Origin: Sphaerolaimus hirsutus
Lineage: Eukaryota > Nematoda > Chromadorea > Monhysterida > Sphaerolaimidae
NCBI GenBank assembly: GCA_964036195.1
Contig: OZ038453.1
Location: forward strand, 29,702,997-29,766,996
Length of the DNA: 64,000 bases
Direction: 5' to 3'
Positions within the stretch are counted from its first letter, which is position 1, and each line of letters opens with the position of its first letter. The position numbers were made by a program, and so were the translations under genes. Shown one piece after another: positions 13,287 to 46,200 of the stretch. The notes under the pieces were generated by a model that saw only the letters and a program-made list of their open reading frames with translations, was not told the origin of the DNA and ran no database searches.

Positions 13287-16200
13287 TGGAAGGACATTTC
13301 TTCTCGCTGGCTGGCTGGGAGTGTGTGGTAATTTTTTTGTTTTTTTTTACAGTAAATATTCTTCATGTTGAAACTATACTCCCCTTTTATTATTTTTTAA
13401 AACCTCCCTCTGAAAAAAAACGGTTTGAAAACTTTGGTAAGACACGTGAAATGTCAACTTCACAGTCAAAAGTGACAAACATATTGATGACAATTTATTC
13501 ACTTATCACCTACCGTATTTACTCGAAATACCCCCCCCCCCTTGAATGAACCCCCCCCTCGAAATACCCCCAGGTATTTTCGAGCTGAGGAAAAAATAAC
13601 CCACCCCCCTCGAAATACCCCCGAAATACCGAAATAAGGTACATCATGTACGCAAGGAACATGATGTATTTATTGCGACACTTTTAATATCGCAGTTATA
13701 CGTATACACTAGTTTGTGTAGTGATGTACGTTTACATCCCTGTTATGTCCCAATATACCCTATTTGGTCACGTTTATTACCGGTTTGGGGTATGTAAAGG
13801 CGTATTCTTTAGTATGACTTTCCCAAAAATTTCTGACGTAATAATAACCCCTCCTCGAATGAGCCCCCCTCGAAATACCCTCCCCCAAAATTTCCACTCT
13901 GAAAAAATAAACACTCTGGGGGTATTTCGAGGAAATACGGTAGTTTTATTTGGCGGATCGCAAAGTATGAGCCCAAAATTACCTTTTTATGTCTTAGTCG
14001 AGAACGCGCGAGCAGGGTACTTAGGTATGTAAGCACTTTCACAGAAAAATATATTTTAAGAAGAGCAAAAAAACGGAATCAAGTACAAAGTTTTTTCAAA
14101 ACAATTTTTTATTAATAATGACGTCATGATGGAGTATTTCATTCAGAAAAATGCATAACATTTTTCCGCCGAGTGTCATAAAATTCTGTCACAACTTTTC
14201 CAAATCCCACATGAAATACCGTAACCATTTTTAATGCCAAAACCGAAACGTAACTCGCAGAAACGGAACAAGAGAACCCTCCAAGGAGTGCGGAATCACT
14301 AATTGGCTGGAAGCCAATTCCTTGGCACCCAGGTGGGCAATTTAATTGACCCGAGACTATTTTGTCGGGCATCCCGAAAATGTGTTATGTGCAAAAATTT
14401 CCGTTGAAAATGCGTGTATGAAAGCACGCAAAACATTTGCTTTTTTGCATCCAAAACATTTGCAATTGCGATTATGCACTGGCAAAGTAATATAAATCGC
14501 CACAAAACACACATTCAATCGGGGAACATAAAATTCCAAATACAATTAATCGGGTTACCCGACAAAAAAGTGGCTGGGCAAATTAAATTTCGCCCCAGGT
14601 TTCGTCGTTCTCAGAAACGATCCCCCGTGCATCGCTTGTTATAATAGCGAAGAGGTGAGTAAATTTTTCTGTATACGTGAAAATCAGGGTCTAATTTTTG
14701 GCGGAAATTTGAATTTTGGAGGAAAAAGAAAAAAGAAAATTCCTGTTTTCGTAGGCTGATCTTGGCGTGTTGCCAAAACTAGAATTTTCCCCTAACTTCT
14801 ACCTTCCAGAATGTTTTACTATAGAGTATACCTAGTTGACAAGTGCAACAAATGTCAACTGGTTCTCATCCCAATTCAAAGACTTTTCACGTGCTGACGA
14901 ACGACGTTCAAATGCAAAAGTGTAGAAACATGTTTCTAATGAAGCTGGACTGTTAAAAAGCGTAGTGTGAATGATGAAGCACTCGTGATGAAGCTTTGAA
15001 TTGGGATTGTAAACGGTTCACATTTCGTTTCATTGTATGTAGGGCCATTGAACGTTTTGTAATTTGAACTTGGCTAGTTTCCAATTTCCAAATTATTCAA
15101 ATTTACCGAATTTCCCAAAAATTTTCATTTTTTTCAAATTTTGCAGGCAGCCGAGAGCGATTCTGGCGGTTTGCCGATTTTCCGAATAGATTTTTGCGAT
15201 TTTGGAACGGTGCCAAATTTCACGCGCACACCGAAAATGACCGATTTAGATTCTAAAGAGCGCATTTCCAAATCGGGAAGAAATCGTGATAGAAGTAATA
15301 CTGCTTTGTTTAGAGTCTATGAGCAGGTGAGCTTTTCTCACTTTTTGGATGAGTGCCAATTTTTTAAGGGTGGTTGAGTAGAGGCGGAACATTTTTGTTG
15401 TGTTCTGGGGGCTCAATATATCGATTTTTTCAATGTATAGGATGCAGAAAAGGAGCATAATCGCCAAAAATGGGGGAAATAAAGCCAAAAATAAGCAAAA
15501 CGCGCATGAAATAATGATTTGAAAGAAAGATTGGCTAAGAGGTCTGAAGATTAGCGATTTTGAATGAACATTCCTTCAAAAAATTTTTCAAAATCCCGCC
15601 ACCCAATTGAAAAAACTAGTGGCAGATGGACCGCCTTTGGGTCCGCGCACCAAACCTTCTATCGGATTGCAAATCCCATCTAGGTAAACAAAACGTTCAT
15701 GTGCGGCACCTCGCTGTACATTGAGCGTTTTGTCTGCCTAATACCTTTCAGCACCCAGGTTATCAAATAATCAAACCTGATCCTTGTCAGTAACCCATTT
15801 TACAACGTAAAACGTACCCTCCAGCCGCCATAGCGTTTCAACTCCTTGGCGCCCCATGCACGCGGAGTTACAGTGCCAGCTTCTGAATCCAGTTCAAAAT
15901 CGGCCAGCTATCTAGCTATCTGAAGTGTGAACACATAGTAATTTTTGCGGTACGCCGAGTAAAATAACGTACATAATGTTGCAACAACATTTTTCAGCTG
16001 GAGCCACTCGCATCTCACTGCCACACTTATGAAACATTCGACTACCGTGCGGAAAATTACGGTACTTTGCCGGCTGTGGGTTACGGTTTACATTCGGAGG
16101 ATTACGGTTTACATTCGGAAGATTACGGTAGCCGATCGCTGGTGCGGAAGGGCAGGGGGAATAAAAGAAATCGAGGTGTGTTTTGGGGCGAATTTTTGGG

Positions 16201-17121
16201 AATTTTTGTTGTTGTTTTGCAATTTGTGCGTTTTTGTTTTAGTGTCGCGCATAGTTTGCATGGTTATATTCATTTGCATTTTGATGCAATTTTGATATCG
16301 AACTTATTTCTCCATAAATTTCACATAGGTATATTTTTTATCCGTCTTTTCTCTTCTCAACTTTATCAACTACATTATGCACTACTTATCTTACATAAAA
16401 TACCGTATTTCGTATAACAAAAGAGCGCCGTTTAATTTTTGTTATCAACTTTTTCCCTGCCGTTCTATTGTGTTACAAAAAATACGGTTGATTAACATTG
16501 TAATTAATCATTTCAAGAATATTTTTATCGAAATTTTTGGCAAATTTACAAAAATTTAACCCCCCAATTAGGGTTCAAACGGGATCCCGATCCCGATCCC
16601 GGATCCCGTGAAATTCCGGGATTTAGCAGTCCCGATCCCGATCCCGAAATCTCAAAAAGTCAATCCCGTTTGAACCCTACCCCCAATCGTGTTTAAACAA
16701 ACCAGTTCGAATTCCGACAAGTAAACAAAGCGACAGGAAAAATGGTAAGTGGGCGATATATCGTATCAAAAATCTATTTTTACACATCGAATATCGATAT
16801 CGAAAATTGAATAAAATATTGAATATTGACTTTTTTGAATATCCGATATCGACCACATTTGGAATCCATGGTCCATATCGATATCAATATACGGAAAAAT
16901 CGATATCGAAAAGTCAACTCTACTTCGGGGGGTAATGTGTAGAAGAGTCTTACTATCGTAGAGATGTAGAAATATGTAATATCGCCTTAATATTCTGACA
17001 TCATCATTATTTTTATTATTCTTCATCATTAAATAACAAAATCATAAAATGACACGATTTATAATGTCCAACAATTCGTGCAGATACTGTAAATATTTTT
17101 TCAGGAGTTGAATTCCACTGA
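13287..17121 (+). CDS. Gene A: membrane protein with tyrosine-containing basic tail, 5' partial, 7 exons
   Basis: Exons 13287-13436, 14261-14332, 14599-14654, 15147-15326, 15998-16175, 16706-16744 and 17105-17121 (TGA stop). Every intron is GT...AG, and phases 1,1,0,0,1,1 join without a stop, giving 229 residues after a split first codon. Strong donors are GAG|gtgagt (14655), CAG|gtgagc (15327) and AATG|gtaagt (16745). Exon 1 encodes a membrane-spanning stretch (WECVVIFLFFFTVNIL), then the charged sequence KPPSEKKRFENF. The tail carries several tyrosines, a tandem GLHSEDY repeat in exon 5, and a lysine/arginine-rich C-terminus ending VEFH. A type I receptor or adhesion protein with a cytoplasmic tail is an inference; upstream exons, expected to end in phase 1, were not found. 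I do not recognise the family. Intron 2 is an introner. The last two exons are very short and are the least certain part. Confidence 0.68.
13513..13940. mobile_element. TA-target MITE (CCGTATTTACTCG ends) in gene A intron 1
   Basis: Starts CCGTATTTACTCGAAATACC and ends GGAAATACGG with TA on each side. Long C runs at one end and GGGGGTATTTCGAGG at the other are typical of the family. An internal GAACATGATGT segment belongs to this copy only. Confidence 0.7.
13950..14190 (+). repeat. Dispersed ~200-bp repeat, copy 1
   Basis: Shares an ordered set of motifs (CGCAAAGTATGAGCCCAAAATT, CTTATGTCTTAGTCGA-like, GAGCAGGGTACTTAGG, GACGTCATGATGGAGTATTTC-like) with 62735-62965 (same orientation) and 54755-54950 (opposite). 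A fragment is at 19095-19186. Present in gene A intron 1. Class unknown; no clear ends seen. Confidence 0.5.
14333..14598 (+). mobile_element. Introner, AATTTAATT family, forming gene A intron 2
   Basis: The intron begins GTGGGCAATTTAATTGACCC and ends AAATTAAATTTCGCCCCAG. The two ends are imperfect inverted repeats of about 45 bp that also share TTTTGTCGGG. The flanking exon ends CACCCAG and the intron ends GCCCCAG, so a short CCAG is duplicated. Splicing at GT...AG removes the element plus one copy of the duplication and keeps the frame open. Related single ends are seen at 11344-11392 and 59930-59985. Confidence 0.6.
15610..15930. other. GC-richer, hairpin-rich island inside gene A intron 4
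   Basis: Unlike the surrounding AT-rich intron it is GC-richer, with several short stems (GGACC...GGTCC, GGATTTGCAATCC, AACTCC...GGAGTT). The plus strand has exon-like stretches, for example 15629-15681 bounded by CTAG and AG|gtaaac, but their phases do not fit between exons 4 and 5. On the minus strand one frame runs about 100 codons interrupted only by a TGA and a TAG. It could be alternative exons, a structured RNA, or a decayed open reading frame. Confidence 0.35.
16569..16679. mobile_element. hAT-like MITE, TAGGGTTCAAACG ends, GATCCC core, in gene A intron 5
   Basis: TAGGGTTCAAACGGGATCCC at one end and its complement at the other. The core is a (GATCCC)n repeat. An exact 8-bp duplication CCCCCAAT flanks it. 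Confidence 0.85.
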
Positions 17122-17851
17122 GAATATATCCGTTAATCGTTCATGAAGATTGCATGTTTTTTCTTCGTTTTTCTGAATCTGAACATGAGATTTTTTTGTG
17201 CTGTATAGAGTCTTGTTTTGTCACTTTGCATGGGCGCAAAATTTTTATTATAATTAAATTTTTTTTTAATTTTATTTTTGGGTTTAGAAAAGGTAGTATT
17301 TTCGCTTTTCAAAATACAACTTTCAGAAAAAGACATCAGTTAAGCAAAAAAAGCAAAAATGGGTTGTTTTTAACTGAAAAAATGAATCTCCAAAAATTGT
17401 CAAAAAGTAAAGTAAAAAAGTAAAAAGCTTGAAAAATTTCTTAAATTTGTTGTGTCCAATTTTCAAAATTATTTTGTACATAAATCGTATTTTGTGAAAT
17501 GATTACCCATAATAACATGCTTGAAAATTTGGAAGAACTAATCCCCCTTGAATAATCCCCCTTGAAAAGTCCCCCTCAGAAAATCTGATGAAAAAATGAT
17601 CCCCAGGGGGGAATTATTCGAGAAAATATGGTAAAAAGTCATGGAGCATTTTCATTAAAAAAATTATCGACTTGTCACTTTTGATTTTACTCTACCACTT
17701 TTCTTTCTTTTTTATTGAGCTTGTGAAAATGGCCCCTGATTTAAAACAAACAAAAATACATCAAAATGATGCAATTTTCCGTCACTGAGTGTCATCAAGT
17801 GACTTGTGCATGATGCAATAAAACTTGATCACGCCCATTCCACACATAAAA

Positions 17852-18297
17852 CAGAGTTGTTAAAATGCATTTACATTTACTCAAAGAATATGTATACTCA
17901 AGTACTCAGAAAATACATTTAGGTACATTTCCTGTGGAAAAAGTACCTGTGTCCTGTACACCTTTGCACATACTTTTGAAAAGTACCTGAGTACAGAAAA
18001 TGGTTGCTCCGAAATTCCAATGACGAATAAATGGGACATAAGTATGTAAATATTTACAGAAGTGCTTTTATTAAATAATGTAAAACACTTTGTCTTCCAG
18101 TGTAGACATTAAAAAGGTACCTGCTTTTACATGTTCCATGAAAAAAGTAACTTGTTTTTACATTTGCTTGGAAATTTTTTTATACACGTTGACTCATTTA
18201 ACCTTATTTTACATTGTACTCAAGGGAGGAGCAGGTGAGTATTTGCATGAGTATTTGCATTTAGTTTGAAAAAAGTTCAGCAGTGTTAGCAACTCCA
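17852..18297. mobile_element. hAT-like element, CAGAGTTGTTAAAATG end
   Basis: 8-bp duplication ACATAAAA at 17844-17851 and 18298-18305. Subterminal GTACTTTT/AAGTACCTG motifs. Confidence 0.75.
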
Positions 18298-18902
18298 ACA
18301 TAAAATATGAGTTCATTCTATCTGTGTTTTTGCTCTATTTTCTGCATGTATTTTCTGTGTTTTGGCCCCTTTTCAGATTATGTGGTAGCTAGCTTTTTTA
18401 TTCTTCAATTGCTTTAATTTTGAAATTAATAAAAATCAGTATTGGCATTTACGCACAGCCCATGTAAAGTAAAGTTCTGTATCAAGCCATTTCACGAAAT
18501 CATTCTTAATTAACAAAAGATTTCCACTTTTTGTTCACATTGGACAATACATAAAACTATTTTTTTTGCCTGTAGTTTATATGTTCATTGTCATCAGTGG
18601 GGGGGGGGGGTATTCAAGAGGGTTTGTTTTTCTTCACCCCTCAAACAATGAACAATTATTAGAGTTGATATGGTATTTACGTTGTGCCTAACGTGCTAAA
18701 AACGCCTTTTTTCAAGTATGAAAAATTTATGCGGAGATTTTATGGTGGCTGGCACAAATTTTGTCGAATTTTAAATTTATCGAACACTTCTAAGCGTTTC
18801 CTTACAAATAGCTTCAGAAAATTTACGATTGTTTTCTAGACAATTACATTTTTCATGCATTTCTGTTTTCAGGGTATACTCTGCGAACTGCAGCTATATT
18901 TT

Positions 18903-19093
18903 TCTGGGGCACTCCCAGACCCTGTAAAATGTCAAATATCATGGAAAGTGTCAAAAGTCAGGTAAAATGCCCTGCAAAATGGCAACCGAGTTGCCATTTT
19001 GCAGGGCATTTTCCATGACTTTTGACAATTTGCATGATATTTGACATTTTACAGGGCATTTTACAGGGTCTGCTCTGGGAGTGGCACCTGAAG
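18903..19093 (-). mobile_element. Hairpin element (CAGACCCTGTAAAA family)
   Basis: Read on the minus strand it starts CAG|GTGCCACTCCCAGAG and ends GGGAGTGCCCCAG, the same end structure as gene B intron 2. It lies next to the fragment of the ~200-bp repeat, so it is not inside a recognised gene. Confidence 0.65.
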
Positions 19094-19094
19094 G

Positions 19095-19186
19095 AACAAA
19101 AACGTTTCAGGAAAAAAACATTTGCCGCTTGCACGCGACTCTGCCTTCTTTTTCTTTTTTTGAATATTATCCTTTTTGTGAAAGTA
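19095..19186 (-). repeat. Fragment of the dispersed ~200-bp repeat
   Basis: GAACAAAAACGTTTCAGGAA, GCGACTCTGCCTTCTTTTTC and TTTTTGTGAAAGTACC match 54785-54875 closely. Confidence 0.45.
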
Positions 19187-20477
19187 CCGTATTTGCTTGA
19201 ATAACCCCCCTCGAATAATCCCCCTTTTAGCCGCGTGAGGGATAGGGTTCAAACGATATATCGTATCGAAAATCGGATATCGACCATTTTTTAATATCGA
19301 ATATCGAATATCGATATCGAAAATTTTGAAAAAGTATCGAATATTGATATCGAAAATTTTGAAAAAATATCGAATATCGACCATTTTTTCGATATATCGA
19401 ACCTGTATTGTGTCCCCAAATTTACTTTTCATTTTCATTTTGAGATGTTTATGGTTGATCTGATGTGCTTATAGCATTGTATTTGATGAGTAAAAGTACA
19501 GTATTTATAATGTCATTGTTGTTGGAGTGCTAAATTTGAAGCCAGAAAACGCTGATATACTTTTTTTGCAACATGCCCTTAAGCAATTAGGTTAGGATGA
19601 ACTGTAATATGTACCAATTGTTATTTGTCTGATACACTTTGATTCATCATGTTTTTCTTCTATTTTCTACCATTGAGTGATGTAAAGCTTGTTAAAATCA
19701 CTTGCACCATTCAAATTTCAGTAAAGAGATGATTAACAATGTGTGCAACCTAGGGTTGGCCGATGTTTTTTTAAACGTTTTTTTAAAAAAAAACGTTTTT
19801 TTTTTAAAAAAAACATGACGTCCGAAATGTTTTTTTTAAAAAAAAAACATCGGCCGAAATTTTTAGTACTAAGCACTAGGTATTTTGCAAAATTTTTGCG
19901 CGCAAATGCGCAATTTCACACACAAATTGACATTGGTGGTTGTTTTGATTGGTTTTGTTGCATTTTTAGTATTAAAACATCCATTTCTATGTGCTACCAT
20001 GGGTGAATAAGCCGACATATGTTGCTGTAATATATAATATTGAGGTAATGTGCTTCCATGTACCTCCACAGTGTGTAACTTCACTCCCAAAGTAACAACC
20101 TCCTTTTATAACCTTGTTTGATCACAATTCCGTGCCAAACTTTACCTGAAGTCACGAACATTCGACTATAAGGCGATATACGAACGATATGTCGACGAAA
20201 AATGGATATTTTTGACACAAATCACCACTTATAATGCTATCCCATGGCTCCACAGCCATTATATGGTCATATTTAACATCACAGAGTATTGCCAGTGTCT
20301 GATATCGAATATCGAGTTTCAGAAAAAAATATCGAATATCGATATCGAAAATTTTGAAAAAATATCGAATATCGAATATCGATATCGAAAAGTCATATCG
20401 TTTGAACCCTAGTGAGGGACAAAAACCCTTGAATAACCCCCCCCCCCCCTCGAAGGTGGTATTTCGAGGATATACGG
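19187..20477. mobile_element. TA-target MITE interrupted by hAT-like element
   Basis: CCGTATTTGCTTGAATAACC to CGAGGATATACGG, with the element 19243-20411 inside. Confidence 0.7.
19243..20411. mobile_element. hAT-like element, TAGGGTTCAAACG ends, ATATCG subterminal repeats
   Basis: Exact 8-bp duplication GTGAGGGA at 19235-19242 and 20412-20419. ATATCG blocks occur near both ends; the centre includes a TAGGGTTGGCCG element (19751-20300) that lacks its own right end. Hosted in TA-target MITE 19187-20477. Confidence 0.8.
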
Positions 20478-20700
20478 TAGTTTTTGCATAGTGCAAATAT
20501 GCTTTCAATTTCCTTCGCGAATTAAAAATGCACGCGTATTTATTTACTATAACTGGTTTTTCTCACTCGAAATTCTATTTTAATTGAGCTGCAGGTGAAC
20601 AAAAGATTTAAGTTTATGACACCTTTGAAATTGCTTAAAATAATTGTTTGAGGCTTTTTCATGGTGGATTTAAATGAGTTTTCTTTTTTATATTGCTGTA

Positions 20701-20724
20701 GGTAATCTCCAAAAAAACACCCCA
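20701..20724 (+). CDS. Possible micro-exon before a hairpin introner
   Basis: Acceptor tatattgctgtag, 24 nt, then AG|GTGCCAGTCCC, the start of a hairpin element ending GTGGCAG at 20912. Joining to the sequence after 20912 leaves two frames open for about 25 codons. Suggestive only. Confidence 0.2.
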
Positions 20725-20912
20725 GGTGCCAGTCCCAGACCCTGTAAAAGGCCCTGTAAAATGTCAAATGTCATGCAAAGTGTCAAAAGTCATGCAAAAT
20801 GCCCTGCAAAATGGCAACTCGGTTGCCATTTTGCAGGGCATTTTCCATGACTTTTGACACTTTGCATGACATTTGACATTTTACAGGGCCTTTTACAGGG
20901 TATGAGAGTGGC
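20725..20912 (+). mobile_element. Hairpin element (CAGACCCTGTAAAA family)
   Basis: CCAG|GTGCCAGTCCCAGACCCTG to CAGGGTATGAGAGTGGCAG, a nearly perfect long hairpin whose arms contain ATGTCAAATGTCATGCAAAG. Same ends and orientation as gene B intron 2. Confidence 0.65.
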
Positions 20913-21208
20913 AGCTGGATTTTTTTTTGGCACATTTTCACTGGGGATTTCATTCGACCGAATTATTTTTTTATCGGACTTTTTAGGGGGAACTATTCAA
21001 GGTTAAATTTTTATTTCGCCAAACTTTTACGCATGTTTCTATCAACTCATTTCTCGAAATATGCTTTCTTTACAAAAATAAAAAGCCGTTTTTGTTCAAA
21101 TTGGACACAGGTAATCATATTTATGCGTAAATTTCATATTCATCGACTTAAACATGGGTAATTATTCGTGAGGGGATAATTCGAGTGAATACTGAATTTT
21201 GAAAAGTA

Positions 21209-21457
21209 CCATATTTCCTCGAAATACCCCTCGGGGGTTTATTTTTTCAGAGTGAAAATTTTGAGGGAAAAACGTGAAAAATGCAACAATAACCACCATT
21301 TATAAGTTTTTACAGCCTTATAAAAGGATGTAGATGGTATAAACGATGTTCTAACGTAACACAGTAAGTGTTTTGAACGTCTGTTATGCATTTCCCGGGC
21401 CACAAATTCATAGTGCCCATTTTGAGGGGGGGGGGGGGGTATTTCGAGGAAATACGG
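21209..21457. mobile_element. TA-target MITE
   Basis: CATATTTCCTCGAAATACCC to GGAAATACGG with TA on both sides. Confidence 0.7.
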
Positions 21458-21764
21458 TATTTGTTTACTGATTCTTGATTTCGAATTGAGAAATCAATTC
21501 ATTTGACCCATGGATTTCACAATTCGAGAAACCTAATCGTATCGATTTATTCCATTTCAATTTTCGCAGTCGAATTTCACGCACGAGTGCTTTTTTTGTT
21601 ACATTTCACTTTTCCGATGTCATTTTCTGTCGCGAATTTTTGAATGGAAATTTGACAAATGCTTTTTAATCCGTTCAGATAGTGATAAACGTATTTTATC
21701 AAAAGTGATATTTCATTTGAAATGAAAATTGGCTCAATTTCGTGAATTCTTTTGAATTTACCAC

Positions 21765-21960
21765 TTTACGTATACTAGTTTAAAGCCGAAATTTGGCAAA
21801 CCGAAAAATCTATTCAAAATATGAGTTTATCACATTGACATTCCATTTCCGTCAACTGTAGTAACTGACCCCTAGTTCTTGTCAACTGAAATCCGTTGAC
21901 GTTTGTAAACTTAAATCTTGTCAACTTAAATCTCTCCACTTGCAGAATTTGCCCAGGTAC
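21765..21960. repeat. CACTAGTTTA/GTTGAC palindromic element
   Basis: ACTAGTTTAAAGCCGAAATT and GTCAACTGTAGTAACTGACC belong to the palindromic family; ends diverged. Confidence 0.45.
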
Positions 21961-21967
21961 TTTATTT

Positions 21968-22142
21968 TGAATAACACCTGGTAGCAAGTCCCGCAGCATG
22001 TAAAGTGTCAAGTGTAAAATGTCATGTAAAATGTCATTCGAAATAAAACAAAAAATTTTATTACTGAACTTCTGACATTATGCATGACACTAGACAAATT
22101 TGTGTGACACTTTACACGTAACTTTACACTTACTCGGGGAGC
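21968..22142. mobile_element. Hairpin element (AAGTCCCGCAGCATGTAAAG)
   Basis: GTAGCAAGTCCCGCAGC start, repeated AATGTCATGTAAAATGTCA motifs and an inverted right arm ending ACTTTACACTTACTCGGGGA. Confidence 0.45.
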
Positions 22143-23311
22143 TAATCAGGGATTTACGGTATTTCGATGACCATTTCTCAACTTTTTCCATGTAAGATTT
22201 TTTGTTGAAAAATTATATTTCAAACCAAAAAGGGCTTATTTTATCCCTCTACATCTGAATAATGTATTTTCGTTCATTTTTAAACCATAATATCATGAAA
22301 AAGTGATTTATTTCAGCCCGGTCTTTTTGGCTCAAATTCAGGAATTCAAAAATCGCTGTTTTTATGCGACAAAATGGCCAAATGTGCACGCATTTCCCCT
22401 GTATTATGGCCATTTTATGCGCCATGGGAAAACTGATGTGTGCGTGTGGTTTATTTGATGATGGCAAAAAAAAATCTTTTTTTTTCTAAAAAATCAGTAG
22501 ATAGATTTTGTTTCTCAACTTCTAAATGCTGTTTTTGTTTTATGTCACAGAATGTATGTTTAGTGAATACACAAGACAAACCAGTAAATATGGTTTCAAT
22601 ATGAACCCAGACCCTGTAAAATGTTGTGACATGCAAAATGTAATTTTACATGTTTGACATTTTACAGTATGTGGGTTTGGACATGTTTGAATTTAATGTC
22701 TCTTATTTGCATCTGTTATATTCACATTTTGTTACTATCCATGTGAAATACACTTGTCATTTAAATGTCATTTAAAATGTAATATGCTTTATTTGAATTC
22801 AAATCTAGTGTTCGAAATTTCAGAAAAATACATGATTAATGTGAACAATGATGGAAAAATCCTAAAACAATATTGTGGATAAAAATTCAAAATGTAAAAA
22901 CATCTAAATATATTAAGGTATTTTTCAGGTACTTTTCCACCCTGAGTGCTATATATTCAGTTTCAAAAGATTTTTTAAGACTATTTGCTCTCAAAGAAAT
23001 TCTTTGTATATAATTTGGTATCTTTTGTGCTGGATATTTTGAGCCTTTCATGAACTAATCTCTGCAGGTTTTATGATCAAGAATATTTCAGAATAATTTC
23101 AGATCAAGAATATTGATGTACATATTATTTACAAGACACAATGTAATTTTGAGTATTAAGTTTGCAGAGAAATGTTGCGTTTAATGCATAGTGACTTGAG
23201 AAATTTTAAAATATGATTGACTGTTCAAAAAATGACATTATAGAGGCCTAGATAGGTATATATTAATAGCACATAGGCCAATTTTTCATTTCTAGAAAGG
23301 TTCTAGGGGGC

Positions 23312-23475
23312 AGTACGGCACACTGTAGAGTGTCAAATGTCTTGTAAAATGCCAATTAATTGATTTAAAAATACAATGTTTTGTTATTGAACATCGACAC
23401 TTTGCGTAACAATTGACAAATTTGTATAACATTAACACTTTACTTTACAGTAACAGGGTGCGGGACTGTCCCCAC
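23312..23475. mobile_element. Hairpin element, orthologous to 1690-1850
   Basis: CGGCACACTGTAGAGTGTCA at the left and CAGTAACAGGGTGCGGGACT at the right. Shared by both copies of block B, so it predates the duplication. Confidence 0.55.
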
Positions 23476-24023
23476 TGGAGAAATTGTATTATGAATTAAT
23501 AATAAGAACAATTTTATGGCATTTTTAAACAAAACAGTGCATTGTTCATGAAAATTATTTTTGGTTCACCAAAATTGGCATATAATTTTCTACATTCGGG
23601 ATAGGTATAATTCAGGCCTACAAAATTTAAAACTTGCAAGTGACAAGCTGTGCAAACAAGTTGCATACATAAATATCTTGAAAAGTGAAACTTTTGCAAC
23701 ATTAACATGACCCATTTTGATGTTTGCAAATTGAATTATACTGAATGGCCATTCCAATAAAATGTATGAAAAGCTCTTTATAAAGTTTATATTTGCATAC
23801 AGGATATACTGGAATTTACTCTACTACGCATACTTTTGTTTGATTTGACAAATATTTACAATTGCATTTGCGAAAGGTGTAAAACTCTTTCCATATTGGC
23901 CTTAGTTGACAATAATACATTTGGGTGTGAACTCTGCCAACTTATTTCCACTCAGATTTTAGTTGACGGTCGCCGAACGATGTTTTTACCAATATCAATT
24001 CCAATATTGCCTTTCCCACATTG

Positions 24024-33475: not shown

Positions 33476-33551
33476 TTGGCACCTACATATTAACATTCAT
33501 AAATTTGGGATTTGTTTAATTTTTTTAATCTTTTTGAACCTGGGAATTCAG

Positions 33552-35520: not shown

Positions 35521-35713
35521 ATGACGGAAATAACATTTTCCGAACCTAAAGCACTAATATCGGATTTCGGCCACAAAATTATCAATCACATTAAAAATGA
35601 GAGGCAGAAAAATTGTTTCAAGAAAAGTTGGACAATTGCCAGATGTTCTTTAAAGGATTCTGTAGATTTTCGCAGGAGAAATTATGGCAAATGCATTGTG
35701 CATTCTTTGGAAG
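35521..35713 (+). CDS. Probable coding exon, unknown protein
   Basis: Acceptor tttcattcattcatttcag at 35453 leads into an open frame. The ATG at 35521 (AATAATATGACG) gives 64 codons plus one base, then donor GGAAG|gtcagt. The peptide is lysine/arginine-rich with several cysteines (NCFKKSWTIARCSLKDS, RRRNYGKCIVHSLE). If the exon is internal the frame also stays open back to 35455. It ends in phase 1 and no partner exon was established. Confidence 0.45.
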
Positions 35714-36057
35714 GTCAGTTTAACTTTAAAGTGACACTTGAGAAACACTTTAAACTGGAGTGACTTATTGTTGATCTTTACTTATTTACTACCACACACT
35801 TTACAATGAAACCATACTACATTCAGTCTCATAAAACCCCAAATATTTTGGGTTATTTTAGTAGTTGACTACCTATTTATTTGACGTTAGTTGACTGACC
35901 ACTCATTCTAGTAAACTCAAATGCTTTTAAAGTTGATTTACCAGTTTACAAAATTTCGAAATTAAACTTTTTTCAAAGGGGCAGTAGAAACAGATAGAAA
36001 ATAAGCTACTTTTGCATTTTTTTATCAGTGGCCAAATTTTGATTGCACTGTGTTATT

Positions 36058-36295
36058 GGGCCCACACCCACTAGTTGACATCGCAAATTCGCGTCAACTC
36101 AGTGTCAATTGAATAAAACAAGAAGTTTGTAAAAAGCATCACACTTAACAGGAACAATGAAAATGAAGTGTCATGATGTAAAATTAACTATGCTCTATCA
36201 GATAGATAAGTTGAAATCACAGTATCACTTAAATTCAGTTGACATTAGTTGACACGAATTCAGTTGACATCCAGTGTGTGGGGGCCCATTGTGGT
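36058..36295. mobile_element. GGGCCCACACACTAGTTGACA MITE
   Basis: ATT|GGGCCC...GGGCCC|ATT; more than 90 percent similar by eye to 24024-24253. Confidence 0.8.
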
Positions 36296-36297
36296 AT

Positions 36298-36485
36298 TTA
36301 CACACTAGTTTATGCTTGAAACTTCATAAATTCACAATTCTGTTTTGACACATTTGAGTTTACCAGAATGAATCATTTGCGAACTCCATCAACAGCAGTT
36401 GCCGAAGTCTTCATTCCGGTAAACTCAAATGTGTCTAAAGCTAATTTATCAGTTTCCAACATTTCAGCTGTAAACTAGTGTGCGT
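36298..36485. mobile_element. Palindromic CACACTAGTTTA MITE
   Basis: Inverted CACACTAGTTTA ends around TTTGAGTTTACCAGAATGA and its complement CATTCCGGTAAACTCAAATG. Confidence 0.7.
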
Positions 36486-36490
36486 GTATT

Positions 36491-36900
36491 CAGGGGTATC
36501 TTGAATTTTGACCCTTTGAGTGGTTGGATAGATAGCAAATCGCTCCTCCGGAGGGATACATAGCTGAAAAATTTTTCTGGGGGGGTTGGGGTGGTTCGAT
36601 ATATAGGCTTTTTCGGGGCATAGAAGGAAGAAAAGGGAGAAAATCGCTAAAAGTAGGTGTAAAATAGCTCAAAATGGGTATACAAGAGCATATAGTACTT
36701 AAAATAGCTGAAAATAGGCAGGTAGACGCATGAACCAGTGATTTTGGAGGTGAAAATCTATATATAGGTATGAAAAATAGCGATTTTTGAGTGAAAATTG
36801 GGGTATAGTTTCTGAAAAGTCGCTCCAGATAGGTAGATAGCTGGGCGATTTGGGGGGGGGGGGTAACCCCCCCCCCCAACGCCCCCATTCGAGACCCCTG
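36491..36900. mobile_element. hAT-like element, CAGGGGT ends
   Basis: Exact 8-bp duplication CGTGTATT on both sides; same ends and GCTATCTATCC motifs as the copies at 28098 and 30989. Confidence 0.88.
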
Positions 36901-37272
36901 CGTGTATTCATTCCGCCGAATTTTGTATAGCAATATGTCACTGGGTTTTTTATATTTGGCTTCAAAAAAGTTGGTGCATCTTCATGTTTTCTTTGTTATT
37001 GTTTTTGTTGCTTTAGGCGTTTATTCAGTTCATAATGTCAGATTTTTCATTGTTTGCGCAATTTTACAATTTGTTTACCTTCATTTCATTGTTGTATTCA
37101 TTTATTATCCACCACATTTGTCAATTTGTATCTATTGAGAGTGAATTTTTCATTTTTTCAATTTTTTATAAATTTTATTGACCAATTTTTATCCCAGATT
37201 TGCTTGCATCTATTTTGTCCGTATTTATTTGTTTCGATGACCTTGCGCTGAATTTCATGCTATACTCGGCGG

Positions 37273-37927
37273 TAGTGATGGAATGGCGCCATTGGCGCTT
37301 GGCGCCCTTTTCCTGTGGCGCCATTGGCGCTTGGCGCCCTTTTCCTGTGGCGCCATTGGCGCTTGGCGCCCTTTTCCTGTGGCGCCATTGGCGCTTGGCG
37401 CCCTTTTCCCGTGGCGCCATTGGCGCTTGGCGCCCTTTTCCCGTGGCGCCATTGGCGCTTGGCGCCCTTTTCCCGTGGCGCCATTGGTGCTTGGCGCCCT
37501 TTTCCTGTGGCGCCCTTGGCGCTTGGCGCCCTTTTCCCGTGGCGCCATTGGCGCTTGGCGCCCTTTTCCCGTGGCGCCATTGGCGCTTGGCGCCCTTTTC
37601 CCGTGGCGCCATTGGCGCTTGGCGCCCTTTTCCTGTGGCGCCCTTGGCGCTTGGCGCCCTTTTCCCGTGGCGCCATTGGCGCTTGGCGCCCTTTTCCTGT
37701 GGCGCCCTTGGCGCTTGGCGCCCTTTTCCCGTGGCGCCATTGGCGCTTGGCGCCCTTTTCCTGTGGCGCCCTTGGCGCTTGGCGCTCACTTTCTGAAAGG
37801 CGCCAGACGGCCTTGGCGCCCTTTCACCGTGGCGCCCTGCCTGAAAAGGGCGCCAAAATGGCGCCAGCAGGGTTTCAAGGTGAGCGTGGCGCCTGGCGCC
37901 CTTTGTTCTGGCGCTTTTCCATCATTT
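37273..37927. mobile_element. hAT-like element, TAGTGATGGAA end, with internal 32-bp tandem array
   Basis: Exact 8-bp duplication CTCGGCGG at 37265-37272 and 37928-37935. Left end TAGTGATGGAATGGCGCC, right end GGCGCTTTTCCATCATTT. Most of it is the tandem array described separately. Confidence 0.85.
37282..37790. repeat. 32-bp tandem array, about 16 copies
   Basis: Unit GCGCCATTGGCGCTTGGCGC + CCTTTTCC(T/C)GTG. Variants are T/C before GTG and CCATTG/CCCTTG. The 32-bp period is not a multiple of 3, so three frames per strand stay open for 140-240 codons with repetitive products. These are not genes. Confidence 0.92.
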
Positions 37928-38396
37928 CTCGGCGGACATCACACTTACCTAGTCTGGAAACTTTACATCTGAATAATGAACCGAACATTATACAGTTTTC
38001 TCATAATAATACTTCGTTTTTAGTATGGAATAAGTAATTACGCAATTTTTCACAAGATTTTATTCATAAAATTATGGTAGGCTTAGGATTCTGCGCATAC
38101 GTTGCGGTTCGTTGAGTAAACTAAAAATATCAGTAAACTATAAATTTGGTAAACTATTGAATCAGCTTTGAGTTTACCGTAATGTGGTATTTCTTAAGTC
38201 GGCGTTGATTACAGTTGACAAAAATTGAGAAAACTTATTCCGGTAAAATCAATTGCATTGAAATGAGTTTACTAAGGAGAGTTTTCAAATTCATCTTTAT
38301 TAGATTTTATTCATCAAACTACTGTAACTCTCCTTGCATAGTGTGCCGATCAATATATCGTTCTATCAAACTGAATTTACCGCTTTTTTATATATA

Positions 38397-38962
38397 CCGA
38401 GTTGAATAATTCCCGTCTTGAATACCCCCCCCCCCCCCTAGGCATATGTTCAAACTGCGTGCGATTTGAACATAAATGTTATTTTGTACATCTTAAGCAT
38501 CTTTCGTGATTCAAATCATAAAATATGCTTGAAAATTTTGACAAAAAATTCCGCCTGCTTGAATATTTTCTCCCTCAAAAATGTCTCCAAAAATAATAAT
38601 CCCGGGTTGATTATTCGAGCATATACGATAATTTTTTGTCCACCTCTATAATTATGTGAAATTGTTCCAAGACTATGTTTGTTTGTCTGAACTTTTGAGA
38701 GTTTTTACCTTAAGTATCAATAAATATTGTGCAAACAAAAACACAGAAACCTAGTTGAATTGTTGTGATTGAGGATGGCAAACTTTCTGCAAAAAGTGTT
38801 TAATTTTTTAGTGTTGTTCAAAAAAGACATTTCGAATCTTCCGTATTCCCCCAGGGGGTTTATTTGAGAGGGAGGGGGGGGTTAAACAAGGGGGGAACTT
38901 CAAGGGGGGTTTATAAGTTCATAGTGGTCATTTTGAGGGGGGGGGTATTTCGAGGAAATACC
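38397..38962. repeat. Two degraded TA-target MITE copies
   Basis: ATTCCCGTCTTGAATACC...GATTATTCGAGCATATACG (to ~38632) and CGTATTCCCCCAGGGGG...TTTCGAGGAAATACC (38842-38962). Confidence 0.5.
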
Positions 38963-39417
38963 ACAGTTTTTATTTTTCAAATTTTTTGGAATAATTTACG
39001 AATTTTCGAATTTTTACGATGAATTATGGATTGGATACACCTTGTTTGGTTTTGTTTTGTTCTTTATACGCATTTTATACGCATTTTCAACCAAAAATGC
39101 TCGACAAATTACTTCTAAGTGTTTTTCTATTGGTGAAATAAAAATAAAAAAACTTAGAATTTTGAAAATTCTGAGACGTTTTCAAATTTTTGTTTCCCAT
39201 CTTTATGTATGACTAAGTGATGCTTTCTCACAGTTATAAAGTGCCTAAAAGTCGTTTTTTATCTTCGAAAGTTTGTCGAGTATACAAATGTGTACTAAAT
39301 ATGACAGCCGAAAAGTTTTGGTGAAAAATTAAGTGTGTTTATTGACTGTTCGAAGTTTCATTGTTGTCCGAAAATGAGTTGCATTATAACTGAAATATGC
39401 TGCATACCTTTAGGCTA

Positions 39418-39704
39418 AAGTGATGTTAAAGCGCTATGGCGTTTTTGGCGCTTGGCGCCTTGCCCATGAAAAGTGCCATTGCGCTTTTTGGCGGTTGTCC
39501 CTTGGCGCAATTTTCGTCCGGTGCCAAGAACAAAACGCCTGGCGCTGGAGCTTGGCGCAGCGCCAAAGCATAAAGCGCCATGGCGATTCTGGCGCTTTGC
39601 GCCATTTTGCTTTGCTGACATTGGCGCCTTGCGCTATAAGTCGGAAAAGTGCCATGGCGCTTTTGGCGCTCGGCGCCAAAGTCCTGACGCTTTTTACATC
39701 ACTA
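39418..39704. mobile_element. hAT-like element, (T/A)AGTGATGT ends, GGCGCC-rich
   Basis: Exact 8-bp duplication TTAGGCTA. Right end GCTTTTTACATCACTA. Interior is a mosaic of palindromic GGCGCTTGGCGCC motifs. Confidence 0.85.
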
Positions 39705-39865
39705 TTAGGCTATTATACCTGCTGAGGTGTGTTCACTTTATAAAAACACTTTAAAGTGTTTTTGGTGTGTGTTTTTTTGCAATGTGGTCGCAGACATCAG
39801 TTTACAGCGAAAATTTGTGGAACTGATTAATTTGTTTTGAACACATTTGAGTTTGCCGGAATGCA

Positions 39866-40060
39866 GGTGCCATTCCCAGACCCTGTAAAAAGCCGTGTAA
39901 AATGTCAAATGTCATGTAAAGTGTCAAAAGTCATGGAAAATGCCCTGCAAAATGGCAACCGAGTCGCCATTTCCCAGGGCATTTTCCATGACTTTTGACA
40001 CTTTGCATGACATTTGACATTTTACACGGCTTTTTACAGGGTCTGGGAGTATTGCCTACA
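39866..40060 (+). mobile_element. Hairpin element (CAGACCCTGTAAAA family)
   Basis: CAG|GTGCCATTCCCAGACCC to GGGTCTGGGAGTATTGCC, a long near-perfect hairpin, inserted in a CACTAGT-type palindromic element. Confidence 0.6.
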
Positions 40061-41160
40061 TTATTTAATTTTCAACTCAAATTTTTGAAAAACTCATAAA
40101 TCAGCTTTCAACGCGTTTGAGTTTACTGAAATGGGTTTGTCTACATCAACTGCAGTTGACCAAAACATTCCAGTGAACTCAAACATGTCCAAATCTGGTT
40201 TATGAATTTTTAACTTTCAAACCATATGTCTCCGAGTATAATTCCCTCACCCCCCCCCCCGATGATGGTGCCCGGGGCACTATAAATTGCAAAAAGTAAA
40301 TTGCAAATTGCAAATAAATTGCAAAAAAATTTTTTACAAACAAGAAGGATTACATAAGTCCCTCACCCGAATTGTGGTAACCGTAGGGTGAATAATTCAT
40401 TCTTGATATTTGTCAACAGTAGTTGAGTTGACGTACTCCTCATTCCGGTCAACTCAAATGTGTTCAAATCTGATTTATCAGTTTCGGGAATTTATGCTGT
40501 CAACTCAATATTGTGCGTGAGTATAAAAATCTTTGTTTTAATTTCAGTGTCAAGTAAAATTTGAACTGTCACTTGAAATGTCATTTTTTATCCGTCACTG
40601 TCCATTGTCAATAAATAAATTTGAGGATAAAAATATGTTTTCGGCTTTTATTCAGATGGGGTATGAAGATTTTATTTGTAAAGTGCGTGTTCAATTTTTT
40701 CCTTTTAATTTACTATTAAGCCATTTCAAAACATTTATTTTTCTGCCCCCGGGCTGCACCCTCAAAGTTTTGACTTTCGTAATGTTGACAAATTTTACTT
40801 CGGATAAAAAGTTTCCACCCATTGTCTACATTTTCGGTTGTTTTTCTATTCTTTTTTTTTGAACGCCCGAAAAATGGCATTCCATCAATTTGCCATTGTG
40901 CTACAGGGTCTTTCGAAATGGAAATTTTCTTGAGTGTAAAATCGATAATTTTCATTGCCAGATTTAACAATGTGGGGGGTAATTTTGTCGTGTTTTAATT
41001 AAAGTTGTGTTGTAAGTTCTTACATGTAGTAATGTGACACGTGAACTTAAAAGTGAGAAGTAATTTTCTAAATAAGAATACTTTCCTTTTGTTAACTCTT
41101 GACTTATCACTCAGTTTTCTTTTTGTGTAACTTATCACCTATTATGACACTTTCTATTGA

Positions 41161-41918
41161 CACTCCCGGACCCTGTAAAGTGTCAAAGACCCTGTAAAAT
41201 GTCATGTGTCATGTGAAATATATGTTAAGTGTCAAATGTCATGTAATAGACGCTGTAAAGTGTATCCAAATCTTATTTCATCATATCCAAATATAATGTT
41301 TTTGTATTTAAATCTTATGTCTAAAAGTAAGATTTGGTACAAAAACCAGGGCCGTATCCAGGGGGGGGGGGCGGGGGGGGGGCCGCAGCCCCCCCCCCCT
41401 CCCGGGGCGAGACCAGAAAGTGACCGGAAAATGCGACTTTTTCAACGTCAGCGTCAAAAATTCTGCGCGCAAGCGCGCATTCTTCACCAGAGATAAGGTA
41501 TTGGCATCAGATTTGCTCCATGTGGCCGCAAATCGCTATAAATACACTCAATGTTGAACTTTTCGCTGTTTGGTATGTATATTTACATACGTATACAGCA
41601 TTCCATGGCGCTGACGCCAACGCCAATGGCGCCACATGGCGCCATTCAGCCACTATGAAGCTAAAATTTTCGGGGGGGGGGGCTGAGCCCCCCCCCCCTC
41701 GCCGGCCTCCGTAAACAAGCAGCCCCCCCCGCTCAAAAATCCTGGATACGTCCCTGACAAAAACGTAAGATTTGGATATTATCAAATAAGATTGGGATAC
41801 ACATGACAGATTACAGGGTTTTTACACTTTACAGAGTGTTTTACATGACACATGACATTTTAGAGTGCCCTCTTTGACACTTTACAGGGTCTTTTACAGG
41901 GTCTGGGAGTGGCACCAG
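41161..41918 (-). mobile_element. Hairpin element interrupted by a hAT MITE
   Basis: ACTCCCGGACCCTGTAAAG at the left and CAGGGTCTGGGAGTGGCACC at the right; the hairpin arms are split by the hAT-like element at 41347-41756, which is therefore younger. Confidence 0.6.
41347..41756. mobile_element. hAT-like element, CAGGGCCGTATCCAGG ends
   Basis: Inverted ends CAGGGCCGTATCCAGG and CCTGGATACGTCCCTG with exact 8-bp duplication ACAAAAAC. Internal CCCCCC/GGGGGG runs flank GCTGAGCC and GCAGCC motifs. Confidence 0.9.
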
Positions 41919-42688
41919 GCGCCAAGTTCAATTACCAAATACGCTACTGCGCGCATATCGCTTTTTGACCTTTTCATTGAATTTGGAACTGTAAAGCCAC
42001 TTTGCACCTGAAAGCTGCGAGTTAATTTCGATAAAGCCTAAATAAATATCGATAAATGCATCTGAATGTGTTATCTGATTTTTGATAAATTTGTTTGGCG
42101 CCATGTTTTCGCTGAAAAAATCTTTGGAGGTATATTTTTGTGGCTGCAGCGACTAGGCGCTTTTTCCGTTAAGTGCCAAGTCAGAATAAAGTGATAAGTG
42201 GTAACTAGTGAATTTATAAATGACAAGTCAGTGACATTCAGAATTCACTTGGGACAAAATGTGCACCCAATATTTTCTGTTAAAAAATGTAAAAACGCAC
42301 CCCCAATTTGACACATCTGAATCTAGATTACATATTTACTTTTTATAACGATTTTCATTTCTTAATTCAATGGATTTACATCGAACTTTTTGTTTAAAAA
42401 ACTTGCTCAAAACATTTCAATGTATTTATTATCTTTTGACATTTTCAAATCTTTGTTCCTTCCCACATTGTTCACGTATCCTTCCTTTAAAAACACGGAA
42501 ATACTAGGTTGTTCAAAAAGTTCTGAGACAGTGTATTTTTGCGATTGTCAGTTACCTATTTATCAGTTTGGTGAAAATGTTAATGGTAAACAATTATATC
42601 TTTATGTTGTTAATTTATCACTTCCATGACAATTGGGGTCTGTTTATATTGATTAATTCTCAAGCATTTTTTGTTGATTTTGCCCCAG

Positions 42689-42783
42689 AAATGGTGATAT
42701 CTTTTGCTTTATGCTGTATTGTCCTGTTATTTTTTGTGAGTGTCAGGAAAAACAGTTTATTAAAGTGCCAGGAAAAGTGCCAG
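42689..42783 (+). CDS. Possible membrane-segment exon upstream of gene B
   Basis: Acceptor gttgattttgccccag, 95 nt open (phase 1 in, 0 out) and TGCCAG|gtgata. It encodes a strongly hydrophobic stretch (VISFALCCIVLLFFV) then basic RKNSLLKCQEKCQ. T-rich DNA readily gives hydrophobic peptides by chance, and its phase does not link to gene B as modelled. Confidence 0.2.
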
Positions 42784-42941
42784 GTGATATGTCAAGTGAC
42801 ACGAAAATAATAATCAACAAGAATTTTCAATACAAATTGCCAGTTTGGTGGTAATTTGCATGCACAGTTATAAGTGAACTTCTGTGACAAATATTTTCAG
42901 CGACAAATTGACTTGTCAATTGACTTTGCACTCACAACTTC

Positions 42942-43092
42942 AGGCAGTCCCGCACCCTGTAAAGTGCAATGTGAAGTGTCAAATGTCATGCAAAATGTCA
43001 ATATAAATAAGAAATCTTATTGCACATGTTTAGACATTTTGCATGATATTTGACACTTCACGTTACACTTTACAGAGTATGGAACTGTCACC
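42942..43092. mobile_element. Hairpin element (GCAGTCCCGCACCCTG)
   Basis: GGCAGTCCCGCACCCTG start and CAGAGTATGGAACTGTCACC end followed by AG. It is nested in a GTGATAAGTGG-type element upstream of gene B. Confidence 0.5.
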
Positions 43093-43275
43093 AGTTGCCA
43101 CTTTAAAAATGCCAAATCAGTGATAAAATAAGTGACTCAATACTTTCCGAACGCGCCAAAGACATCCTTGTTCAAGTTCAAGTTCAAGTGCACAAATCTC
43201 TGTGTTTCAATGACAATTTTTCGATGTCCAGATGCAAAAATAAAGCCCTAAAAATCGGTCAAATTCCCGACCAAA

Positions 43276-46200
43276 ATGCACACTTGGATTCCCGGGCGGC
43301 CGGCGAAAATTATTTCTTCTAAAAATTCTACAAATAATTCTAAAAACTCGATCCAACAATCGAATTCTCTGATTAATGTTCCTGTTTCTGTGATGAATAA
43401 TAATAATATGGCCGCAAATCGACATTTAACTTCCAGGTGCCAATTTTGCTAGTGTGAAAGTGACGAAAAGTGGTAAGTGACGTTATAGGTAGGGTTCAAA
43501 CGATATCACTTTTCGATATCGATATTCGATATTCGATATTTTTTCAAAATTTTCGATATCGATATTCGATATTAAAAAATGGTCGATATCCGATATTCGA
43601 TATTCGATACGATATATCGTTTGAACCCTAGTTACAGGTGGCTGGTCAAGTGACAAATTGAATAATAGGTGACAAGTAAATCTTCAAGTGACAGGTTATT
43701 TTATTCACGGATTTGATTGTCAGCTGTAAGTTTATTTGTCTTGTCACTCTGATCTGAGGTTAAAAAATTTGAATCTCGAATTAGTAAAATAAAAAAAATT
43801 ATTTAGGACTAAAATCAAAACTCATTTAAAGAAAGGACAACACTTGAAGATTTTTACATGAAGAAGTGTTTTTACCAAGGTTTTACAAAAGTAGTTTTCG
43901 AATTTTCGATTTTTGGATACACTTCGACATTTCGTTTTTTTCCTCTATTTTTCTCAATGTGAAATAAAAGTTTTAAACTGTGTTTTCTACCCATTCAAGT
44001 TTTTTTTTGCTGGTGCAAAGAAATTCTATTTTCTGTTTGCCATCGTTACTTACCACTTTTATCGTCACTTCTCCACACTTGAAATTGGCACCAGAAAAAC
44101 ATTTCACACTAGCCGCAAAAATTTCCAACCGCCCCCAACTTTAAATGGACCAAATTTTGGGTCAAAATTGGTCACTTTTAGACCAAATAAAAGGGCAAAA
44201 TCGCTGCCTAAAATCAGTCAAAATTCCAGCGGAAAAATGAGGATAGTTTTGGAAAAGCGCCAAGCTCATTCACCCCCAGGTGCCACTCCGAGACCCTGTA
44301 AAATGCCCTTGACAATGTCAAATGTTATGCAAAATGTCAAAAGGCATGTAAAATGACCTCTCAAATTTCAAATGTAATACAAAATGTCAAAAGGCATGTA
44401 AAATGTAAAATATAAAATGTAATGCAAAGTGTCAAGTCGTGTAATATCCCTGTAAAAAGTAAAATATCATGCAAAATGCACTGTAAATGTTAAATGTCAT
44501 GCTCATGCAAAGTGTCAAGTCGTGTGGTGTAGCATGGCCTTTAAAATGTCAAACGTCAGGCTAACCGTCAAAAGTCATGTAAAATGCCCTGTAAAATGTC
44601 ATATGTCATGTAGCAATTTTCCATGGCATTTCATATCTTGATATTTGAGACATGTTGCATTACATTTTAAATTATACGGAACATTTTATGGGGTCTGGGA
44701 GTGCCCCCAGCAACGAGTCATTTGAAATTCAGGGAAACTAGTCAAAATCACAATTTTCCTTTGTACGGACCTCTGCAAGGTGAGGGGAATTATTCAAAAA
44801 AATTTCTTTTTAATATTTCCTTTTCTAAAAAAAAACAATTTTATTCCACATTTTCCATTAAAAATGGCAGGATTCCCGCTGCTGGAGCAGCAACATTCTC
44901 TTTACGGGCCATGTGCATATGCAAGTACAAATTTTGCAAATGACGAACTTCAGTGCCACGATGTATACCAAAGGGGCAGAAGTAGGCCGCAGGTTGGCAC
45001 CATGCGAAGGGCGAAATCTGTTAGCAGGAGAAATAATCATTTTGGTGAGATTTTTATGTATTTTTTACATTTTACATTTTTCAAATTACCAGTTCAATCA
45101 CTACATTGTATTTGAGATAATTCGCTCAAAGCCTTTCATTTATTTCATTCCAAATATTTATCTTTACAATTTGCATCAACATCCGCATAACCATAAATCC
45201 TTAAAGATGCCCTCTACTAGGTATTTTTACTTAATATTTAAATTACTTTATTTTAAATATGTTTAGTGGTAAGATTTTATCATTTTGCAAGCGATCTTTT
45301 TATGGGAATTTTTCATGCCACTTGACTGATCTTAAAATCAAAAAGTGTACAAGAAGTTGTAAGTAAAGTGCAACGATAACTATACTAATAAAGTGACAAG
45401 TTCATTTATAAATGAATAAACTGGTGACATGTGGGTTGTGTTCACTTAGTCATTTGTGAGTTCCCTCGTCACCTTAGTTCCCACTTATTAGACCACTTTA
45501 CTTGTGACTTGTCCACTCACAGAAACTTTACACTTTAGCTTTAGATTTACCACTTTGCCACACTTCTCTTGTGACTCCCGGTGGCAGTCCTCACCATGTA
45601 GATTGTCAAAAATGATGCAAATTTGTCAACAAAAAAAATTATTACTGAATATACTGACATTATGCATGGCATTTGACAAATTTGTATCACATTTTACATG
45701 ACACTTGACACTTTACAGGGTGCGGAACTGGACAGAGGCATCAAAAAGTTATCATATTTGTCATGTCACCCAAATAAGTACAATGTATGCGTCCATACCT
45801 ATCATCTGAACTCATAACCTTTCATTTTGTCTGAAAGTATGCATTTTTAATGAATCCATCATAAATAACTATCAGTTGTGTGGATGACATTCATTTCCGA
45901 ATAAGTTCCACACTTTACTTGTTTGCGCATGGTAAATGTGAAAAATATGGACTTTGGCAGTTTTTTTCTTGTTTTACTTTTTTCTTTTTTTATCATGATT
46001 TTGTATTTGCTTAATGCCAAATATTAAGCATGTTTACTTTTTCTTACTCAGTTTTGAAAGGTTTTATATTTAGCTGTCCTGTGTAAATAAATACAGTATT
46101 TCCTCGAAATGGGCACTATGAATTTGTGGTCCGGGAAATGCATAACAGACGTTCAAAACACTTACTGTGTTACGTTAGAACATCGTTTATACCATCTACA

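Follow-up and report, generated by a model that had tools for sequence, protein, structure and literature searches.

The origin of new introns is a long-standing question, and few animal cases of intron-making transposons are known. In the introners surveyed by Gozashti et al. (2022, PMC9860276), non-autonomous DNA elements constitute the introns, one splice site is borne by the element and the other is derived from the duplicated target, and several families occur per genome; the example pictured there, in which the 5′ site is carried and the 3′ site is co-opted, has 4-base-pair (bp) duplications and no inverted ends, and the survey's main text does not use the word "nematode". In the larvacean Fritillaria, introns tied by the authors to introner transposons largely escape the GT/AG rule (PMC13326754). 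NuwaI, a member of the PHIS superfamily (PIF/Harbinger, ISL2EU, Spy), has a CWG duplication (W, A or T) and terminal inverted repeats that are usually GGG; it is known from 16 animal genomes, none of them from a nematode, and neither "intron" nor "nematode" occurs in the main text of its description (PMC4482050). A literature search covering titles, abstract openings and some passages returned no report of a nematode introner or of a CWG-type introner. Here, a 64,000-nucleotide (nt) stretch of the nematode Sphaerolaimus hirsutus (GenBank assembly GCA_964036195.1, contig OZ038453.1, positions 29,702,997–29,766,996, forward strand; hereafter the window) was analyzed, with emphasis on three inverted-repeat elements, E1, E2 and E3, that coincide with predicted introns of two genes, A and B (Table 1). 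Ends of all three resemble NuwaI in the 3-bp CWG duplication, and both occur in animals; the 3-bp CWG duplication and inverted ends differ from the pictured introner, and the GT-AG borders differ from the Fritillaria introns. We consider it highly probable that CWG-targeting, NuwaI-like elements become exact introns in this genome, with GT supplied by the element and AG by the duplicated target.

All three elements have the same layout, comprising inverted ends, CAG on either side, and GTG immediately after the first CAG. Direct reading of the edges gave ..CACCCAG/GTGGGCAATTTAATT...AAATTAAATTTCGCCCCAG/GTTTCG for E1, ..CTTCCAG/GTGCCAATTTTGC...AAATTGGCACCAG/AAAAAC for E2, and ..CCCCCAG/GTGCCACTCCGAGACCC...GGGTCTGGGAGTGCCCCCAG/CAACGA for E3, which confirmed the coordinates of the original prediction as exact, together with its description of GTG after an exonic AG, an end at a duplicated CAG, and inverted ends. 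This layout was ruled out as sufficient proof of introns by further such pairs in the window, which contains 414 inverted-repeat pairs. A scan for 14-bp inverted ends with at most 3 mismatches, flanked on either side by CAG or CTG, gave 13 pairs, including E1 and E3 (E2 was one mismatch over the limit by manual count). Because the window is rich in repeats and the scan lists other such pairs, the layout of the three elements alone is not beyond chance. Evidence independent of layout was obtained by searching the assembly (348,482,957 bases, 762 contigs) with the element sequences, as had been proposed: ends related to each of the three families adjoin CWG genome-wide (13 of 14 for E1, 6 of 6 for E2, and 56 of 77 for E3).

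For E3, 40 of 3509 candidates were scored, these being the copies most like the window copy; the matches listed correspond to 38 places besides the window copy, of which 34 were fetched for inspection, and family searches were run at part of the fetched loci. Four E3 introns in three genes (encoding an Argonaute, a Patched-type protein and a channel) were firmly supported by homology, and one in a fourth gene was supported more weakly. Each supported intron comprises one element and one further triplet, and no intron sequence remains to either side of these. For the Argonaute gene (locus L023, C13:3207300-3217299), a spliced alignment was made using only the Caenorhabditis angaria homologue (P0001) and the GT/GC..AG rule, the element position not being supplied. 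The sixth of 11 introns called was exactly one E3 copy, CAG/GTGCCACTCC...AGTGCCCC/CAG; the edges of the remaining called introns are not all reliable. The protein is continuous over the E3 junction with no gap (FPQWP/DAVKY vs FPRWP/DLVKY), human AGO2 (PDB sequences) aligns through it, and the best named matches were from nematodes, namely Caenorhabditis angaria (62%), Gongylonema (63%), Aphelenchoides (58%) and Romanomermis (49%), which points to a nematode genome. Two E3 copies interrupt the coding exons of the Patched-type gene (L021, C1:30189200-30199199); once joined, the exons matched PF02460 at profile positions 3–155 of 156 (1.6e-38). The second of these E3 introns is flanked by CAG on both sides. 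The ligand-gated channel gene (L040, C2:8815500-8817800) matched PF02931 (1.5e-14), and both GluCl and GlyR could be aligned over its junction (..EWHDQ/PIHTEQ..), with one extra residue in GluCl just before the join. The weaker case, an Ig/titin-type gene (L012/L022), has its strong I-set stretch downstream of the junction, and low scores were obtained for alignments across the junction. Introners are recognized by similar sequences that fill introns of several genes to both splice sites, and E3 copies do so; as predicted from homology, E3 relatives appear to be exact GT-AG introns in conserved genes.

Several E3 copies were excluded from this count. A third copy in the region of the Patched-type gene (reverse complement of L021, about 7851–8042) is reversed and without a GT donor. 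The copy in L008/L024 has a CTG acceptor, L018 has a weak Srx match (0.013), and L015, L016, L031, L033 and L037 have open joined frames and nothing more.

Ends of E3 copies were picked by similarity to GTGCCAG or GGGGCAG, regardless of flank. The fetched loci and the window gave 100 raw matches, 23 of which failed the end rule, and 77 ends were kept; six loci nested in longer loci were left out of the count. The two ends are asymmetric, the left reading GTGCCANTCCCAGACCCTGTAAAATG after CAG and the right, reading inwards, GGGGCANTCCCAGACCC after CTG (i.e., GTGCC and GGGGC). Position 2 was T in 40 ends and another base in 37 (G in 29, A in 5, C in 3), and the 37 non-T ends had G at positions 1, 2 and 3 in 34, 29 and 34 cases. 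Flanks of the T ends were CAG in 23, CTG in 9 and other triplets in 8 (CWG, 32/40), while those of the remaining ends, read from outside, were CTG in 15, CAG in 9 and other triplets in 13 (CWG, 24/37); a rough estimate from base composition puts chance CWG flanks at about 2%. The target is therefore CWG. In the orientation of the T end, CAG was about twice as frequent as CTG (38 vs 18 ends, two-ended elements being counted twice), and identical CWG triplets stood on both sides of 9 of the 18 elements that were paired by our own rule. The interior is made up of units of about 50 bp, whose number varies among copies. Since T at position 2 is also present in copies with CTG duplications (e.g., L001), it is a trait of the family, not a copy-by-copy repair.

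Based on these ends and the supported introns, the following route is proposed. Short non-autonomous DNA transposons, CWG-targeting and NuwaI-like (PIF/Harbinger-related), would enter CWG triplets and duplicate three bases. In the E3 family the left end is GTG and the right end GGG, with GGG probably ancestral. When an exon is entered at CAG with the GTG end leading, the RNA would read CAG/GTGCC......CCCC/CAG, in which the element would give the 5′ splice site GT and the second target copy would give AG as the 3′ splice site. Splicing the insert out would then restore the original coding sequence exactly. At a CTG target, or with the GGG end leading, one splice site would be absent. U1 can read CAG/GTG, and U2AF a short pyrimidine run before CAG; RNA would presumably be spliced at the predicted sites. 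The E3 family would have used this route repeatedly, and E1, with a GT end, would represent the same design, seen once. T at the element end may have been favored as making inserts harmless.

Support for E1 came from a paralogue. Searching the genome with E1 returned 24 matches, each of which was scored: E1 itself, one full-length copy (94%) and 22 matches to the right end. The 94% copy lies 26 kb upstream, within a tandem duplicate of gene A (L041). Over 501 nt of coding sequence, gene A and its paralogue differ by 10 synonymous and 3 nonsynonymous substitutions with no indels (synonymous sites S, 110.3; nonsynonymous sites N, 390.7), corresponding to a synonymous divergence (dS) of about 0.09 and a nonsynonymous divergence (dN) of about 0.008. 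The E1 intron differs from the paralogue copy at 16 of 266 positions (6.0%) with no indels, and the other gene A introns diverge by 4 to 9% with many indels. Four gene A exons have 12 substitutions in 508 positions (p = 0.014 against E1), a count that omits the last exon (1/17) and the first (49/76, misaligned owing to the later start of the paralogue stretch) and uses slightly different exon edges from the 501-nt comparison. E1 diverges like intron sequence, and from the substitution pattern in gene A, the frame spliced exactly across E1 has thus been kept by selection. Pfam and protein searches with gene A gave no match, despite which the gene is supported through its paralogue; its codon score (-0.16) was between the 75th and 90th percentile of window open frames, in a test that was uninformative. 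Thirteen of the 22 right-end loci were fetched, and the E1-family right ends adjoin CAG in 9 cases, CTG in 4 and CCG in 1. As judged by eye, E3-like sequence is present within E1-family loci L049, L050 and L052.

E2 and the window E3 are both predicted introns of gene B, a model with a single open frame of 220 amino acids over five exons. The interior of E2 contains a second, nested inverted repeat. When the whole of E2 was used as query, 40 of 547 candidates were scored and matches elsewhere came via the nested repeat; the search was redone using the right part of E2, which gave 9 matches, all scored (E2 itself, two matches in the interior, and six to the right end). The six E2-related ends read CAG/GTG in two cases, CTG/GTG in one and CTG/GGG in three, two of the six having identical flanks, and no second ends of these relatives were paired inside the fetched stretches. 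E2 is probably of the same design as E3 and E1. The nested cgatatcgatattcgatat repeat, bounded by gggttcaaacg and gtttgaaccct, was observed at about 43480–43630 (within E2), 19243–19401 and 20328–20413 of the window and at many other places in the genome.

A number of results weigh against the proposed route. Homology-supported introns were obtained at 4 of the 34 fetched E3 loci. The triplets around the first E3 intron of the Patched-type gene are unlike (CTG and CAG), as are those at L017 (CTG/CAG), and some E3 copies have CTG duplications. The 30 fetched loci that gave no homology-supported intron, and a window full of inverted repeats, are what would be expected if ordinary miniature inverted-repeat transposable elements (MITEs) lay within pre-existing introns and the match to the splice sites was coincidental. 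However, a pre-existing intron would leave remnants, and the supported E3 introns and E1 consist of element and one triplet only; this alternative is already disfavored, and we consider it very improbable.

The joined-flank in-phase test of E3 copies was not significant (5/10 on the spliceable strand, p = 0.21; 11/26 otherwise). In L050 (C9:9254000-9255600), an E1-family insertion at 508–815 has CAG on both sides and lies within a long open frame, yet it starts with GG, not with a GT donor. Both results would fit insertions that interrupt exons and do no more than damage genes or pseudogenes, the joined frames being flanks read through. This is countered by the purifying selection on gene A across E1, an element present in both paralogues, and by the frames around the elements in the Argonaute, Patched-type and channel genes, which are open and conserved, and disruption is accordingly given very little weight as a general explanation. 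L050 was itself rejected as an E1-family intron (no GT, no Pfam match and one chance-level PDB match, although the frame is open) and represents either a broken gene or non-canonical splicing. Left-end candidates of the E1 family, found at 5 of the 13 fetched loci, start with GG or GA and none with GT, so E1 looks like one spliceable copy in a family whose other inspected ends are not spliceable; the ends examined do not support the E1 family as a general intron maker.

For gene B, no match was obtained in a Pfam search, no homologue among about 5.8 billion proteins (in a search that needs shared 5-residue words), and no second copy in the genome. The codon score (-0.37) was just below the 75th percentile of window open frames, with no distinct signal, and this test was also uninformative. 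Nothing independent supports gene B, the host of two of the three introns, and E2 and the window E3 are therefore predicted introns. Gene B may be no gene, and E2 and the window E3 copies outside genes that resemble introns, as these negative results and the many copies of E3 would allow. Its five exons nevertheless form one open frame, E2 and the window E3 are each oriented for splicing with CAG duplicated at the edges, and nematodes commonly have orphan genes. We regard the absence of a gene here as a distinct possibility, somewhat short of an even chance. The earlier claim that removal of the elements restores the reading frame is supported for E1 by the paralogue comparison and, with gene B unproven, is unproven for E2 and the window E3. 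The claim that the introns are made of transposons, with the element end as the source of GT and the duplicated target as that of AG, is supported for the E3 family by homology in conserved genes and for E1 by its paralogue; for E2 it depends on the unproven gene B.

The original prediction also held that the three families are unrelated, which is right only in part. Their bodies are without match between families save for short weak ones, and this would favor three independent inventions of intron-making. However, the CWG target, the 3-bp duplication and the terminal G(T/G)G are common to the E1, E2 and E3 families, and because these are shared the families look like one design; independent inventions are therefore judged unlikely. 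The further claim of several independent, intron-generating families is not supported in that form; E3 alone was observed to form introns in two or more gene families.

NuwaI ends are usually GGG (PMC4482050), while here 37 E3 ends mostly have G at each of positions 1 to 3 and 40 have T at position 2. By analogy, NuwaI seems a good working likeness for the elements, and a NuwaI-type transposase may be the mover of E1, E2 and E3. A genome search using PF13359 (DDE_Tnp_4), in which 150 of 306 candidates were scored, gave at least 163 matches. Six loci were fetched and contained five copies of two families and one locus without clear ends. The right ends of the five copies were read, the left ends falling outside the stretch reached; they terminate in GGGGCC, and the next bases are AAT or ATT, apparently ANT and not CWG, a further point to be set against the proposed route. 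This mark resembles the ANT of the Pangu group (PMC4482050). No autonomous CWG-type partner was present among the six fetched PF13359 loci, Myb/SANT not having been searched for. Many of the DDE_Tnp_4 (PIF/Harbinger-like) matches, including C2:10037349, C9:23027630 and C4:21011072, are of near-equal score and length, and three fetched copies are about 99% alike, which suggests recent activity. At L060 (C4:16437000-16441500), a DDE_Tnp_4 open frame of 174 amino acids has no recognizable transposon ends in the stretch and is a possible domesticated gene.

On a wider scale, a CWG-targeting, PIF/Harbinger-like nematode lineage may have turned intron maker through a change from GGG to GTG at one end, and thousands of copies may have added introns genome-wide, including in conserved genes. 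In that reading every insertion in the right orientation would be born splice-ready, since CAG, the target, is also a usual 3′ splice-site triplet and the donor comes with the transposon end. We hold this reading tentatively, at close to an even chance. The proposed mechanism is legible from single copies, requiring one base change at a transposon end and a target triplet that doubles as acceptor, and would provide a direct route for intron gain in animals. The unequal ends, the division between CAG and CTG, and the E1 relatives that are not spliceable make selection for splice-ready insertions directly testable.

Table 1. Elements, exons and gene models in the window (window coordinates)
Feature	Coordinates	Strand	Remarks
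E1, CWG-target inverted-repeat element; exact GT-AG intron of gene A	14333..14598	+	element 14333-14595, right CAG copy 14596-14598
E2, CWG-target inverted-repeat element, second repeat nested inside; predicted gene B intron	43437..44094	+	element 43437-44091, right CAG copy 44092-44094
E3, CWG-target element, interior with units of about 50 bp; predicted gene B intron	44280..44710	+	element 44280-44707, right CAG copy 44708-44710
Gene A, candidate first exon (MSQNFLDS..), less certain	13253..13328	+	by reading; paralogue stretch covers only the last bases
Gene A, in-frame part of the exon upstream of E1	14262..14332	+	frame open, no indels vs paralogue
Gene A, exon downstream of E1	14599..14654	+	1/56 substitutions, no indel vs paralogue
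Gene A, exon	15147..15326	+	paralogue comparison
Gene A, exon	15998..16175	+	paralogue comparison
Gene A, last exon with stop	17105..17121	+	one change in 17 nt, valine kept
Gene B, model, unproven	43276..46567	+	exons 43276-43436, 44095-44279, 44711-44779, 44871-45044, 46494-46567
E3-family copy outside both gene models	18907..19087	-	CAG both sides; edges by eye
E3-family copy outside both gene models	41158..41914	-	CTG at GTG end, TAT at other; no intact duplication

Other features of the window were as follows. Positions 6465–6664 are 200 N. A tandem array at 37175–38037 has long open frames in several frames, with repeats like WRHWRLAPFP / RAPSANGATGKG, and fragments resembling this array are also present at window position 48305 and in L021. 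A repeat around gggggtatttcgaggaaatacggta recurs at 13530–13940 and 46100–46320 of the window, and translated fragments resembling it occur in L021–L023.

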